This document shows positions 13,212 through 52,070 of a stretch of DNA of 64,000 nucleotides, piece by piece (position 1 is the stretch's first letter; the number at the start of each line of letters is the position of its first letter). Both the position numbers and the translations under genes were made by a program. The stretch spans positions 26,555 to 90,554 of the forward strand of contig NZ_QYTW02000002.1 in NCBI RefSeq assembly GCF_003605405.2. The letters run 5' to 3'. The notes beneath the pieces are model-generated. The model was not told where the DNA came from. It was given only the letters and a program-made list of their open reading frames with translations, and searched no databases. The stretch comes from Siminovitchia terrae (lineage in GTDB: Bacteria > Bacillota > Bacilli > Bacillales > Bacillaceae_C).

Positions 13212-13866
13212 AAAAGCGTAGGGCGACGTTTAGCGACGTACAGACTGGAGCGTCTTCGACGAGATAAAGGAAACACGGCGACGAAGGAGCCGATGTTGAC
13301 TTATCGTAGGAGGGGGCGGGAAGTCTGCTAGTTGCTGGAGCCCGGAGCTGGCCAATAGAAAAGCGTAGGGCGACGTTTAGCGACGTACAGACTGAGCTGA
13401 AATGTGGAAGACGGCCGTTTAGGGGCGACAAGCGCTGGAGGGCAATCCAGTGAAGTCGTTCTTTGACTTCATAGGATTGACCGAAGCGACCTCGAGCCCC
13501 TGCCGTCTGCAACTAGACAAGAGCGTCTTCGACGAGATAAAGGAAAAATGAAGTGCGAGAGTGCCTGATTATCGGCGACAAAGCATAAGGCGAGCGCTAA
13601 AGAAGGCGTAGTTTGCCTTCAGCGGCGATTGACTTATGACCTCGAGCCGATGGCACTCGGCAGGCTCAAGCAGCGACGTCCTGTCGCTTCGCCTGCACTA
13701 GCACATCCCTGTGCGTCGGCAGGCTCAAGCAGCAACGTCCTGTCGCTTCGCCTGCACTAGCACATTCCTGTGCGTCGGTCGCCTCAAGTCGCCACATCCT
13801 GTGGCTTCGGTGGCACTAGGACGTCCTATCCGTCGGAGCTGGCCAATAGAAAAGCAGATAGTGACA
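13212..13866. repeat. Family B composite repeat, copy B2
   Basis: The spacer between acdA and the TetR gene is wholly repeat. The unit GAAAAGCGTAGGGCGACGTT occurs at about 13212 and again near 13360. Blocks ending in CTGTCGCTTCGCCTGCACTAG-like sequence repeat near 13680 and 13740. Many segments match copies B1, B3 and B5. The copy ends near ATAGAAAAGCAG at 13848-13857. No gene is supported. Confidence 0.8.
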
Positions 13867-26802: not shown

Positions 26803-26850
26803 TTTTAGGAGGGATGTATTCCCTCCTTCATGACTTTTAAGTTGTGTAAT

Positions 26851-27040
26851 TTCATTCAGCAGAAATCTTCCACTTCTATAAGTGGTGAGATGAATGCATA
26901 TTGGTATTCCATTCAGTGGGGGGTCAAACCCCGGCTGAATAAAGTTAAAGCCTCCGGCGGATGCCACAGATTTTCAGAGGAAATTTATCGAGCTTAAGCT
27001 CGATAAAATCTGGGCGCAAATACGCCAAGGCGCATTTGAT
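26851..27040 (+). repeat. Family A multi-hairpin element, copy A1
   Basis: 190 nt from TTCATTCAGCAGAA to GGCGCATTTGAT. Order of structures: CCACTT/AAGTGG hairpin; CATTCAG-TGGGGG/CCCCGG-CTGAATAA hairpin; CTCCGGCGGATGCC; CAGATTTT/AAAATCTG helix enclosing ATCGAGC/GCTCGAT with loop TTAA; terminal CAAATACGCC/GGCGCATTTG hairpin with one mismatch. The base before it is TGTAAT rather than the usual TTTAAC. No coding frame is supported. It sits between glpX and rho, in gene orientation. Confidence 0.85.
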
Positions 27041-27240: not shown

Positions 27241-28491
27241 ATGGCTGGTTTAACCATCTCTTCATTAGAAGATATGAAACTGAAAGAATTATATGAACTT
27301 GCCCGTGAATACAAAGTTTCCTATTACAGCAAACTTACAAAAAAAGAATTGATATTTGCCATTTTAAAAGCTCGTGCGGAGCAGGAAGGCTTCTTTTTCA
27401 TGGAAGGAGTCTTGGAGATCATTCAATCTGAAGGATTTGGTTTCTTAAGGCCAATTAATTATACGGCAAGTTCTGAGGATATTTATATCTCGGCATCACA
27501 GATTCGCCGTTTCGATTTGCGCAATGGAGATAAGGTTTCCGGAAAGGTGCGACCGCCTAAGGAAAACGAACGGTACTATGGATTGCTTCATGTGGAGGCG
27601 GTCAATGGAGATGATCCAGAAAGTGCTAAAGAGCGTGTCCATTTCCCGGCATTAACTCCGTTGTATCCAGATAGACAGATTAAACTGGAGACGACCCCTT
27701 CAAACTTATCTACTAGAATCATGGATCTTATTTCCCCGGTTGGTTTTGGACAGCGTGGCTTGATTGTGGCTCCTCCGAAAGCCGGTAAAACAATGCTGTT
27801 AAAATCGATCGCCAATTCAATTACGACAAATCATCCCGAAGCAGAATTGATTGTATTGCTAATTGATGAAAGGCCTGAGGAAGTTACAGACATTGAACGC
27901 TCAGTAGATGCGGAAGTTGTAAGCTCCACATTCGATGAGGTTCCGGAAAATCATATTAAAGTGGCTGAACTTGTGCTTGAACGTGCCATGAGGCTAGTAG
28001 AGCACAAACGAGATGTGATCATTTTGATGGATAGTATCACAAGGCTTGCCCGCGCATATAATTTAGTCATTCCTCCAAGTGGAAGAACGCTTTCCGGAGG
28101 TATTGATCCAGCGGCATTTCACCGTCCAAAGCGATTTTTTGGTGCCGCTAGAAATATTGAAGAGGGTGGCAGCCTGACTATTTTGGCGACAGCCCTTGTA
28201 GATACGGGTTCCCGTATGGATGATGTGATTTACGAGGAGTTCAAGGGAACTGGGAACTTGGAACTGCATTTGGATCGTTCTTTGGCCGAAAGAAGAATTT
28301 TCCCTGCCATCGATATTCGCCGTTCTGGGACAAGGAAGGAAGAGCTTCTTATACCGAAAGATCGGCTTGAAAAAATGTGGAAATTGCGTAAAGCGATGTC
28401 GGACACTCCTGACTTTGCGGAGAAATTTCTGCGTAAGCTGAAGCAAACAAAGACGAACGAAGAGTTCTTTGAAGCATTGACTACAAAGTAG
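27241..28491 (+). CDS. rho: Transcription termination factor Rho
   Basis: Hexameric RNA helicase that ends transcription at Rho-dependent sites. From ATG 27241 ([21 protein letters not shown]) the product is 416 residues and lines up with B. subtilis Rho from its first residues. An in-frame ATG at 27175 with AGCAGG nearby would add 22 residues, and 27241 itself lacks a clear Shine-Dalgarno, so the start is unsure. The N-terminal SAP-like and OB domains are followed by Walker A PPKAGKT, Walker B VIILMDS, and GRTLSGGID. Confidence 0.95.
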
Positions 28492-28498
28492 ATTTAAC

Positions 28499-28674
28499 GT
28501 CATTCAGCAGAAGTCTCCCACTTCTGTAAGTGGTGAGATGAAAGCCTATTGGTATTCTATTCAGTGGGGGTCAAATCCCGGCTGAATAAAGTTAAAGCCT
28601 CCGGCGGAGGCCCCAGATTTTATCGAGCGGAGCTCGACAAAATCTGGGCGCAAATACGCCAAGGCGCATTTGAT
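28499..28674 (+). repeat. Family A multi-hairpin element, copy A2 (short form)
   Basis: 176 nt, starting at GTCATTCAGCAG just after rho (TAG then ATTTAAC). It lacks the TCAGAGGAAATT internal loop present in other copies, so CAGATTTT-ATCGAGC now pairs in one continuous helix with GCTCGAC-AAAATCTG, loop GGA. All other stems are kept. It points to a structure that tolerates loss of the internal loop. Confidence 0.85.
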
Positions 28675-28818
28675 AAATATTTCGTTGAGCTTGAATTGCA
28701 TTTTTACTTTCACCTTGTTATAATAAAAAATGTGCTTTTTTGAATTACTGCAGATTTATGTCTGCATCGTAATATAGAACTCTGTTTCAGCAAATGATTC
28801 AGGGCATTAAGGAGATGA

Positions 28819-29805: not shown

Positions 29806-29846
29806 AAAATGTCTTATCCACATGTTAATAACCAATACGTTTTAAC

Positions 29847-30047
29847 TTCATTCAGCAGAAGTCTCCCAAAAAGTCTCCACTTCTGTAAGTGGTAAGATGA
29901 ATGCATGTTGGTATTTCATTCAGCAGGGGGTCAAACCCCGGCTGAATAAAGTTAAAGCCTCCGGCGGATGCCACAGATTTTCAGAGGAAATTTATCGAGC
30001 TTAAGCTCGATAAAATCTGGGCGCAAATACGCCAAGGCGCATTTGAT
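29847..30047 (+). repeat. Family A multi-hairpin element, copy A3 (long form)
   Basis: 201 nt, preceded by TTTTAAC. Near the left end it carries a short internal duplication, GTCTCCCAAAAAGTCTCC, making it the longest copy. Stems and the right end GGCGCATTTGAT are as in copy A1, with loop TTAA in the ATCGAGC/GCTCGAT hairpin. It fills most of the 394-nt tdk-prfA spacer. Confidence 0.85.
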
Positions 30048-32869: not shown

Positions 32870-32870
32870 C

Positions 32871-33059
32871 TTCATTCAGCAGAAGTCTCCCACTTCTGTA
32901 AGTGGTGGGATGAATGCCTATTGGTATTCCAATCAGAGAGGGTTCAAACCCCGGCTGAATAAAGTCAAAGCCTCCGGCGGATGCCACAGATTTTCAGAGG
33001 AAATTTATCGAGCAGAGCTCGATAAAATCTGGGCGCAAATACGCCAAGGCGCATTTGAT
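32871..33059 (+). repeat. Family A multi-hairpin element, copy A4
   Basis: 189 nt starting right after CTTTAAC, in which TAA is the spoIIR stop codon. Loop of the ATCGAGC/GCTCGAT stem is AGA. The hairpin-2 strand reads AATCAGAGAGGGTTCAAACC, somewhat diverged. Right end GGCGCATTTGAT is intact. Confidence 0.85.
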
Positions 33060-35282: not shown

Positions 35283-35470
35283 ATCAAATGCGCCTTGGCG
35301 TATTTGCGCCCAGATTTTATCGAGCTCCGCTCGATGAATTTCCTCTGAAAATCTGTGGCATCAGCCGGAGGCTTTGACTTTATTCAGCCGGGGTTTGAAC
35401 TCCCACTGAATGAATACCAATAGGCATTCATCTTACCACTTACAGAAGTGGGAGATTTCTGCTGAATGAA
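35283..35470 (-). repeat. Family A multi-hairpin element, copy A5 (reverse)
   Basis: 188 nt, the only copy on the minus strand. Read in reverse it begins TTCATTCAGCAGAAATCTCCCACTTCTG after TTTAAC and ends GGCGCATTTGAT at 35283. It lies between the mntP terminator and ywlE, against gene direction. Loop of the central hairpin is CGG. The stretch 35195-35280 before it contains decayed family B sequence (CTAGCTTCGACG, AAGCGACAGG). Confidence 0.85.
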
Positions 35471-35587
35471 GTTAAAGGCATTTCAGTCTGGATTGTTGCT
35501 TGTACCTTGTTCTAGGCAATCTAAGGATTGGGTAGTGAAACTTCTTTTAGTGATATAATATATAGAAAACTTTATGAGGGGGCAGCT

Positions 35588-38601: not shown

Positions 38602-39345
38602 TTATTCATGTAGCTCCAGCGCCTATCGACTAGCAGACTTCGCGCCCAATGTGCTCCTGCGGCGCAGAGTATTCGAGGATGTAAACCTCACCTCGTCGCA
38701 AAGCTGTATGAAGCTCACTCAAGAAGTCTCTCACGAGGTACTCCAAGTAAGCTGCTTTCCTACGATAAGTCAACATTGGCTCCGACGTACAGGAAGTACT
38801 AGTGCAGGCGAGGCGACAGGACGTCGCTGTTTGAGCCGGCCGACGGACACGGTGTTCTAGTGCAAGCGAAGCGACAGGATGTCGCTGCTTAAGCCTGCCG
38901 AGTGCGTAAGGATTAAGCCAATCGCTTCTGAAGGCAAACTACGCTTTCCTCAGCACTCTCTTATGATTGTCGCCGATAAGCAGGCACTCTCGCACTTCAT
39001 TTTTCCTTTATCTCGTCGAAATCACTCTGTCCAGCTCCAACGCCTAACCCCTCGAGGTCATAAGGCAATTCCCTGTGGTGGCTGAGGAACGCCTCCTCGG
39101 GAATTGCCTTATGGTTGTCGGGGTTAAGCAAGGCGTTTCCGCATTTCAGCTCAGTCTGTACGTCGATGAACAGGCGCTTATGCTTTTGTTCATCGTCTAG
39201 CTCCAGCGCCTATCGACTAGCAGACTTCGCGCCTTCTCCTACGATAAGTCAACATCGGCTCCTTCGTCGCCGTGTTTCCTTTATCTCGTCGAAATCGCTC
39301 CAGTCTGTACGTCGAAGAACAGGCGCTTATGCTTTTGTTCTTGCC
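38602..39345. repeat. Family B composite repeat, copy B5 (largest)
   Basis: About 740 nt of repeat between glyA and upp. TAGCTCCAGCGCCTATCGACTAGCAGACTTCGCGCC occurs twice in it (about 38610 and 39196, quoted here as its core TCCAGCGCCTATCGACTAGC). In the middle (about 39030-39130) lies the compact palindromic unit seen alone in B4 and B6, with CCCCTCGAGGTCATAAG and CTTATGGTTGTCGGGG as its arms. AGCGACAGGATGTCGCTG segments also repeat near 38810 and 38870. Apparent open frames, including a long 5' extension of upp, are repeat artefacts. Confidence 0.8.
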
Positions 39346-51641: not shown

Positions 51642-51644
51642 AAT

Positions 51645-51829
51645 TTCATTCAGCAGAAATCTCCCACTTCTATAAGTGGTGAGATGAATGCATATTGGTA
51701 ATCCAGTCAGTGGGGGTTCAAACCCCGGCTGAATAAAGTCAAAGCCTCCGGATGCCACAGTTTTCAGAGGAAATTTATCGAGCGGAGCTCGATAAAATCT
51801 GGGCGCAAATACGCCAAGGCGCATTTGAT
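51645..51829 (+). repeat. Family A multi-hairpin element, copy A6
   Basis: 185 nt, flanked on the left by TTTAAT contributed by the murA terminator T-run. It lacks the GCGG of the usual CTCCGGCGGATGCC (here CTCCGGATGCC) and one A in CACAGTTTTC. Central loop is GGA. The insertion leaves the murA terminator intact. Confidence 0.85.
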
Positions 51830-51885: not shown

Positions 51886-52070
51886 TGTCCAGCTACGACG
51901 TACAGGAAGTACTAGTGCAAGCGAAGCGACAGGACGTCGCGTTCTGAGCCTGCCGACGTACAGGAAGTGGCGGATTGAGGCGGCCAGCGCCTAGCCCCTC
52001 GCCTCGGGTACAAGCCGCTTCCCTGTGGTGGCTGAAGAACTGCCTCCTCGGGAATCATCTTGCGCTTTTC
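51886..52070. repeat. Family B composite repeat, copy B7
   Basis: Begins near TTGTCCAGCTACGACGTACAGG and ends GGGAATCATCTTGCGCTTTTC, containing AAGCGACAGGACGTCGCG and the CCCCTCGCCTCGGGTACAAG...GTGGTGGCTGAAGAACTGCC core. It fills the murA-spoIID spacer with copy A6. No gene seen. Confidence 0.75.

Follow-up and report, generated by a model that had tools for sequence, protein, structure and literature searches.

A gene-less repeat family of Siminovitchia terrae and its probable movement in trans as single-stranded DNA

Described elements and the family A repeat

IS608, ISDra2 and their relatives are described as moving as single-stranded DNA on the lagging-strand template, with subterminal hairpins and a target that precedes the left end; transposition in the IS200/IS605 group uses a guide at the hairpin foot and leaves no duplication (PMC6006769, PMC7290912). 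In the part of the literature drawn on here, the left and right ends of these elements are not always alike (PMC7290912). PATEs, defined in PMC3119063, are described from Haloquadratum and Halanaerobium (PMC3119063, PMC7290912). Within Bacillus, the bcr1 element of the B. cereus group is a short mobile repeat whose mobility is linked to a TTTAT motif (PMC6542083, PMC2267715), and it is said to have plasmid copies (PMC6542083).

The window analysed here, a stretch of 64,000 nt from Siminovitchia terrae, holds eight copies of a repeat that we call family A, seven full and one 5'-truncated. The family A element is mobile, gene-less and about 190 nt long; its size excludes transposase coding, the aligned copies of its own genome spanning 165-215 nt including the target, with a mode of 195 nt (n=147, copies selected for that length range). 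The copy under study and the other copies of the window are laid out as follows.

28493..28497, plus strand: TTTAA target pentamer, which precedes the element and lies outside it (empty sites in relatives; flank logo of 83 full copies)
28498..28674, plus strand: family A element under study, of a subtype with 12 nt deleted (empty sites and 83-copy flank logo)
28498..28508, plus strand: 5' strand of helix P1, pairing with 28581-28591; its outer pairs would extend into the TTTAA target (cross-genus pair counts)
28509..28513, plus strand: AGAAG, foot of the left hairpin, putative left-end guide
28514..28538, plus strand: P2, left-end hairpin with a bulged T, resembling IS605-type left ends
28581..28596, plus strand: 3' strand of P1, GCTGAATAAAG, then TTAAA facing the target
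28597..28612, plus strand: conserved hinge GCCTCCGGCGGAGGCC, family consensus GCCTCCGGCGGATGCC (alignment A1)
28613..28648, plus strand: P5, the central hairpin of the sequence-only reading, with loop 28629-28631, an A28622.C28638 mismatch and the 12-nt internal loop absent
28651..28672, plus strand: P6, right-end hairpin
28670..28674, plus strand: TTGAT, right terminus of the element (empty sites and flank logo)
26850..27040, plus strand: family A copy, target TGTAA at 26845-26849 (empty-site comparison)
29846..30047, plus strand: family A copy, target TTTAA (empty-site comparison)
32870..33059, plus strand: family A copy, target TTTAA (empty-site comparison)
35283..35471, minus strand: family A copy, the only minus-strand copy of the window; no clean empty site
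51644..51829, plus strand: family A copy, target TTTAA
56104..56293, plus strand: family A copy, target TTTAA
57915..58060, plus strand: family A copy, 5'-truncated

The ends of the element, CTTCATTC... and ...CATTTGAT, are not inverted copies of one another, so that family A has no terminal inverted repeats. As set out in the sources drawn on here, PATEs resemble it in being short, in lacking terminal inverted repeats, target duplication and a transposase gene, and in carrying subterminal palindromes, of which the left one in family A is related to IS605-type elements. Family A differs from them in number (an extrapolated 577 copies or so, where two Haloquadratum strains have 177 and 194 PATEs), in a right palindrome unlike the IS605-type right ends seen, in its long conserved core and in its Bacillales host. 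With IS608, ISDra2 and the resident tnpB elements it shares a left hairpin with a guide-like foot, a target preceding the left end and an orientation tied to the lagging-strand template, whereas it is gene-less and has a different right end (compared as described in PMC6006769). AGAAG, which by eye recurs in the majority of the IS200/IS605-type left ends compared, may act as the left-end guide, by analogy with the guides described in the consulted part of PMC6006769. Known here by description and not by aligned sequence, bcr1 resembles family A as a short mobile Bacillus repeat; judged by the same description, family A differs from it in giving no Bacillus plasmid match at E 0.001 and in spanning several families of the order. 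REP/REPIN repeats with their RAYT are likewise high-copy and palindromic, with a Y1 relative as presumed mover, while family A has about 190 nt and an IS605-type left end (PMC6006769 for the features compared). GTGG does precede helix P3 of family A, whose inner stem has 4-5 bp (by eye), and by eye no long REP-type stem is apparent behind GTAG/GTGG; a REP/RAYT element would have GTAG/GTGG at a distance of 0-2 nt from a following basal stem of 7-20 bp.

The left end recurs in elements that carry tnpB. Searched against plasmids at E 0.001, the whole element matched one record, a Clostridiaceae plasmid, over 43 nt of the left hairpin, next to a putative TnpB remnant (by eye). The 41-nt consensus hairpin matched 12 plasmid records at E up to 10, among them records from Clostridiaceae (2e-7), Leptotrichia and Fusobacterium (2e-5), Mycoplasmatota (8e-5), Paenibacillus (0.04) and Brevibacillus (0.5); an Enterococcus match appeared only with the clostridial hairpin as query. 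In the Fusobacterium animalis plasmid the hairpin (E 2e-5) stands 52 nt upstream of a coding sequence annotated as IS200/IS605 TnpB, which Pfam confirms as TnpB, and in the Mycoplasmatota plasmid (E 8e-5) 85 nt upstream of one annotated as transposase. That of Paenibacillus larvae precedes an unlisted frame, a putative TnpB by eye, and that of Enterococcus faecium a putative broken Y1 gene (by eye); the Leptotrichia and Brevibacillus stretches have the hairpin and no such gene annotated. These seven left ends are preceded by TTTAAC (four), TTTATC (two) or CTTAAAC (one), as read by eye without empty sites. In the S. terrae genome itself, a similar hairpin with GATGAAT behind it occurs at 4 of the 9 TnpB loci fetched, preceded by TTTTAAC (L262), GATTAAC (L266), CTTTAAC (L269) and TTTATC (L258). 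Outside family A, 864 kb of this genome contain the strict left-end pattern nowhere and a looser hairpin pattern three times.

The right hairpin ends at TTTGAT, and no IS605-type right end compared resembles it. No tnpA or tnpB gene lies between both family A ends in 23 Y1 loci (4 own, 19 in relatives) and 30 TnpB loci; near these loci family A is found only as complete copies. Y1 genes are carried by 159 of 199 genomes of the order and by 8 of 9 genomes with family A, so the presence of Y1 in a genome is uninformative for the mobilisation of family A; one carrier of family A, G146, has no Y1 domain at E 0.001.

Two variant forms of the element were seen in relatives. Forms of about 90 nt (L058 in G172, L046 in G022) have the left hairpin and the right terminus ATTTGAT and no core; they are either minimal mobile forms or internal deletions. 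Three copies in G030 (L040, L045 and L067) share a P5 tip that is swapped for a longer hairpin stretch, carrying ACGTCCTGT (or ACGTCATGT) and ACATCCTGT motifs like a second repeat family. That second family consists, in the window, of hairpin repeats of 58-59 nt, partly in tandem (325-429, 13657-13833, 38779-38907 and 51892-51962), with ACGTCCTGT/ACAGGATGT motifs that we take to resemble a CsrA site; at 51899-51964 an Rfam match to Bacillaceae-1 barely passes the gathering score.

Insertion, orientation and distribution

Empty sites in sister species were found for four of the five copies tested and show precise insertion 3' of TTAA/TAA without duplication, with the joints (insertion point at the slash) GTGTAA/CACAAC, CGTTTTAA/TCTTAC, CTTTAA/GACACA and CTTAA/AATATT. 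The fifth, the copy at 35283, gave no clean empty site, its flanks being too diverged. Across 83 full copies the flank logo shows TTTAA on the left and a nearly featureless right flank, and target duplication is at chance level or below. One head-to-tail pair is joined as TTTGAT followed directly by CTTCATTC, with no TTTAA between, which is the joint to be expected if the same target had been used twice.

Sampling covered 864 kb, made up of the window and 40 further stretches, each of 20 kb and placed at a round position, on contigs known from match lists; 7 of 101 matches were dropped for overlapping better ones, as far as seen on the opposite strand. The sample holds 94 non-overlapping copies, 83 of them full, which extrapolates to about 577 copies in 5.30 Mb, some 2% of the genome. 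A first-pass search had listed 598 candidates in this genome, of which 40 were scored. Copies are nearly always intergenic: a simple, crude ORF caller with an 80-codon minimum places 2 of 94 within ORFs, and none of the 101 matches lies inside an ORF longer than 450 bases.

The plus strand of 90 of the 94 copies is on the G-rich strand (p 1.5e-5 against the long-ORF share, 79.6% of long-ORF bases being on that strand), where the leading strand was assigned by the GC skew of 20-kb stretches. This holds for 44 of 46 copies with leading-strand genes on both sides, for 39 of 40 whose neighbours lie on opposite strands, for the single copy with an unknown neighbour and for 6 of 7 flanked by two counter-oriented, lagging-strand genes. 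Because the bias persists between counter-oriented genes, orientation follows replication and not the neighbouring genes. The relatives lean the same way, with 25 of 27 copies on the G-rich strand in the sister species G003, 2 of 2 in G117 and 3 of 3 in G195, or 30 of 32 altogether (p 0.07 against the expected 80%, short of significance by itself, and 2.5e-7 against 50%); no copies lay in the 40 kb sampled of G146 or the 120 kb sampled of G005.

Family A was found in 7 of 40 genomes including its own, and in 9 of 199 in a draw of the order, again including its own, belonging to several families by taxonomic label. The exact right-end pattern occurs in at least 80 stretches of named genomes, whose genera include, among those listed, Bacillus, Fredinandcohnia, Schinkia, Psychrobacillus, Ureibacillus, Amphibacillus, Cytobacillus, Lederbergia, Peribacillus, Siminovitchia and Alkalihalobacillus. 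A record labelled Arthrobacter beigongshangensis (L188) also bears it, through either horizontal transfer or a mislabelled contig. The whole element matched nothing in a phage collection at E 0.001; with the left hairpin alone, 12 phage records came up at E up to 10, led by an unannotated one at 4e-4. Rfam gave three matches in the window at gathering scores, none on family A, and two for the copy under study at E up to 10, both far below gathering scores. Elsewhere in the window, Rfam places a cobalamin riboswitch at 2024-2217. None of the published titles and abstracts searched describes family A; the same sequence under another name would escape such searching.

The copy at 28493-28674 is intergenic. 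It lies between a stop codon ending at 28491, of a gene that by eye we take to be rho (putative), and an L31 leader and gene, the leader matching Rfam L31-Firmicutes at 28780-28814. In G003 the right-end hairpin of the orthologous copy is gone, in G001 nothing of it but the ends, TTTAACTTCATTTTGAT, remains, and G002, G004 and G005 have no copy at this site. Since the orthologous copy is decayed or nearly deleted in sister species, it is unlikely that the copy serves its neighbouring genes.

Conservation of the fold

Folded as RNA, positions 28499-28674 reach -78.2 kcal/mol, against -48.8 (sd 4.4) in 200 shuffles, and the strong structure of this copy is thus far beyond chance (z -6.6). The sequence-only reading had proposed that family A keeps its stems while its loops change, pointing to selection on RNA or single-strand structure. 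The central hairpin with varied loops is present in all eight window copies, where the loops are TTAA (two copies), GGA (three, including the minus-strand copy), AGA, GAA and AA; the loop CGG, also claimed, is in none of them. Its account of the copy under study, in which 12 nt of a one-sided internal loop are gone and the flanking helices are fused and still paired, holds, and the same deletion columns are absent in 14 of 147 aligned own-genome copies, so the deletion is not unique. The stem said to be constant is not: this very copy has ATCGAGC/GCTCGAC, with the A.C mismatch listed above, and exact ATCGAGC/GCTCGAT is found in just 115 of 147 own-genome copies. The minus-strand window copy has C before ATCGAGC where the others have T.

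Within the genome, 47 pairs of six helices were counted in 147 copies, leaving out pairs 9-97 and 177-188, whose consensus is non-standard, and pairs reaching into the target; with C at position 9 opposite A97 in 127 of 147, most copies carry one mismatched P1 pair. One-sided changes broke the pair in 181 cells and left G-U in 100, and two-sided changes kept it in 3 and broke it in 2, where partners shuffled over 200 rounds gave means of 180.5, 102.9, 2.3 and 1.6. Taken together, 183 cells with an altered pair are broken and 103 still pair, matching the shuffled partners, and there is no compensation beyond chance among these copies. All 47 pairs are intact in 52 of 147. G-U and A-C cells number 100 and 82.

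Substitutions are rarer in stems (0.021 per site) than elsewhere (0.054) across the 147 copies. Change types private to one copy amount to 0.74 per site in stems and 0.64 elsewhere, while those common to at least five copies amount to 0.17 and 0.40. Stem-breaking as frequent as loop change had been named as what would speak against selection, and it is seen among one-copy changes and not among widely shared variants, these rates being compared without a significance test. As private changes are as frequent in stems and shared ones rarer, structure is kept by what spreads and not copy by copy. One simple view of P1, in which pairing of TTTAA with TTAAA sets the target, was also rejected: position 102 is C in 49 of 147 copies and breaks the pair with target position 4, yet only 3 single or double variants of the target occur there, so P1 does not simply set the target.

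Between genera, alignment A1 holds 44 sequences (45 representatives minus L054); many of its loci were retrieved by the exact right-end pattern, which overstates right-end conservation. The cross-genus counts use a named structure of 53 pairs, partly derived from the same sequences, in which 87.7% of cells form standard pairs. Cells changed on both sides number 57, a count that none of 500 shuffles reached (29.3, sd 4.3); slid partners gave 20-34. Less striking are the number of pairs with two-sided change (19 against 14.5 shuffled, 25 of 500 as high, and 14-21 slid) and that of further pair types (56 against 51.9 shuffled, 48 of 500 as high). On a tree, kept two-sided changes come to 22.7 against 2.9-6.4 for slid partners, the slid versions beginning with fewer paired cells. 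G-U cells exceed A-C cells by 123 to 93, or 123 to 66 without two A.C-rich positions, an exclusion chosen post hoc, and this excess weakly points to the plus strand. By eye, the right-end hairpin of L211 is a striking case, AAATTCTCC/GGAGAATTT, and L051, L181 and L224 share a two-sided shortening from CAGAT/ATCTG to CGAT/ATCG.

The covariation proposed as a check is found in the pooled counts, where two-sided cells exceed shuffles, and not in single pairs under a phylogenetic null: 118 sequences gave no pair at E<0.05 or at E<1, the best E being 9.3, with the top-scoring pairs mostly outside the model structure. RNAalifold on A1 gave 17 pairs, a covariation term of 0.06 and 2 pairs with two-sided changes. 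Both tests speak against strong covariation, and alternative helices (outer P3, inner P3, P6 h1 and short P4), pooled, gave nothing clear above shuffles. A broken tip, CTAAGGTAAA, is common to 5 of the 44 A1 copies (L041, L221, L222 twice and L179), so a broken form has spread too. Selection on a folded single strand, as the sequence-only reading had it, is supported for the spreading lineage, by the cross-genus counts, and not for each copy, given no compensation within the genome and no protection of stems from private changes.

Probable transposition as single-stranded DNA and its alternatives

Family A is very probably a non-autonomous, PATE-like element of the IS200/IS605 type that is moved in trans as single-stranded DNA, on the basis of its ends, precise insertion, G-rich orientation, a left end common with IS200/IS605 tnpB elements and the decay of single copies. 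This kind of element is already known; family A has no Rfam match. The plus strand would become single-stranded on the lagging-strand template, where the left hairpin and the right-end fold could form and be bound by a Y1 transposase supplied in trans. The enzyme would cleave behind TTTAA at the left end and behind TTTGAT at the right end, and the resulting single-stranded circle would insert behind another TTTAA in lagging-strand template DNA. The stems would be conserved because only foldable copies get moved, and copies would drift once inserted. Counting against this reading are the lack of a tnpA or tnpB gene between family A ends in the loci searched, the missing Y1 domain of G146 at E 0.001, and a right end, GCGCAAATACGCCAAGGCGCATTTGAT, that resembles none of those of the TnpB elements compared; the conserved core GCTGAATAAAGTTAAAGCCTCCGGCGGATGCC is superfluous in the simplest model. 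A chimera, in which an IS605-type left end and an unfamiliar right end surround a conserved core that encodes a TnpB guide-type RNA acting in trans, is improbable; TTTAA would then be the adjacent motif and the right flank the guide for resident TnpB nucleases, and such an element, itself without genes, would secure its copy number by cutting the empty donor sites it leaves.

That family A is instead a functional RNA (a regulator, attenuator or processing element), each copy being kept for its effect on neighbouring genes, would agree with the strong fold, the cross-genus covariation, the excess of G-U over A-C cells, the conserved hinge and the nearly always intergenic setting. We consider it quite improbable, since private changes are equally frequent in stems and elsewhere, compensation within the genome is at chance, orientation tracks replication and not adjacent genes, no Rfam family matches, and the orthologue of the copy at 28493 lacks its right-end hairpin in G003 and keeps only its ends in G001; the mutation spectrum and this decay reject a per-site functional RNA. 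The lack of target duplication, the fixed orientation and the RNA-like fold would also fit a retroelement that travels as RNA (SINE-like, or a fragment of a group II intron) and is reverse-transcribed into the lagging-strand template, but such an origin is extremely unlikely given that no intron or other Rfam model matches family A and that its left end is common with IS200/IS605 elements, which move as DNA. Precise TTAA insertion, the absence of target duplication, the replication-tied orientation and the IS200/IS605-type left end together favour single-stranded DNA over RNA.

The mover itself could be a resident RAYT-like Y1 protein (TnpA-REP) that mobilises family A as a REP/REPIN-like element in place of an IS200/IS605 TnpA. 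The genome does encode a 189-aa Y1 protein, RAYT-like by eye (L103, G000:C13:34702-35028), and Y1 frames similar to it in size occur in several family A genomes; nevertheless this is very unlikely, as the left end matches IS605-type left ends and the L103 gene has GGGGTCTGACCCC-type palindromes, not family A, on either flank. A classical MITE moved by a DDE transposase is rejected by the lack of terminal inverted repeats and of target duplication.

With several hundred copies, family A counts as a major repeat here, and its range takes in several families of the order. The bias in its strand, which is independent of gene orientation, allows the direction of replication to be read from the sequence. 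With family A, two kinds of structural conservation can be held apart: selection for the ability to spread and selection for a function at each site. The two are distinguished by comparing private with shared changes and not by covariation alone. A right end and core unlike those of known elements raise the question of one transposase recognising two unlike ends.
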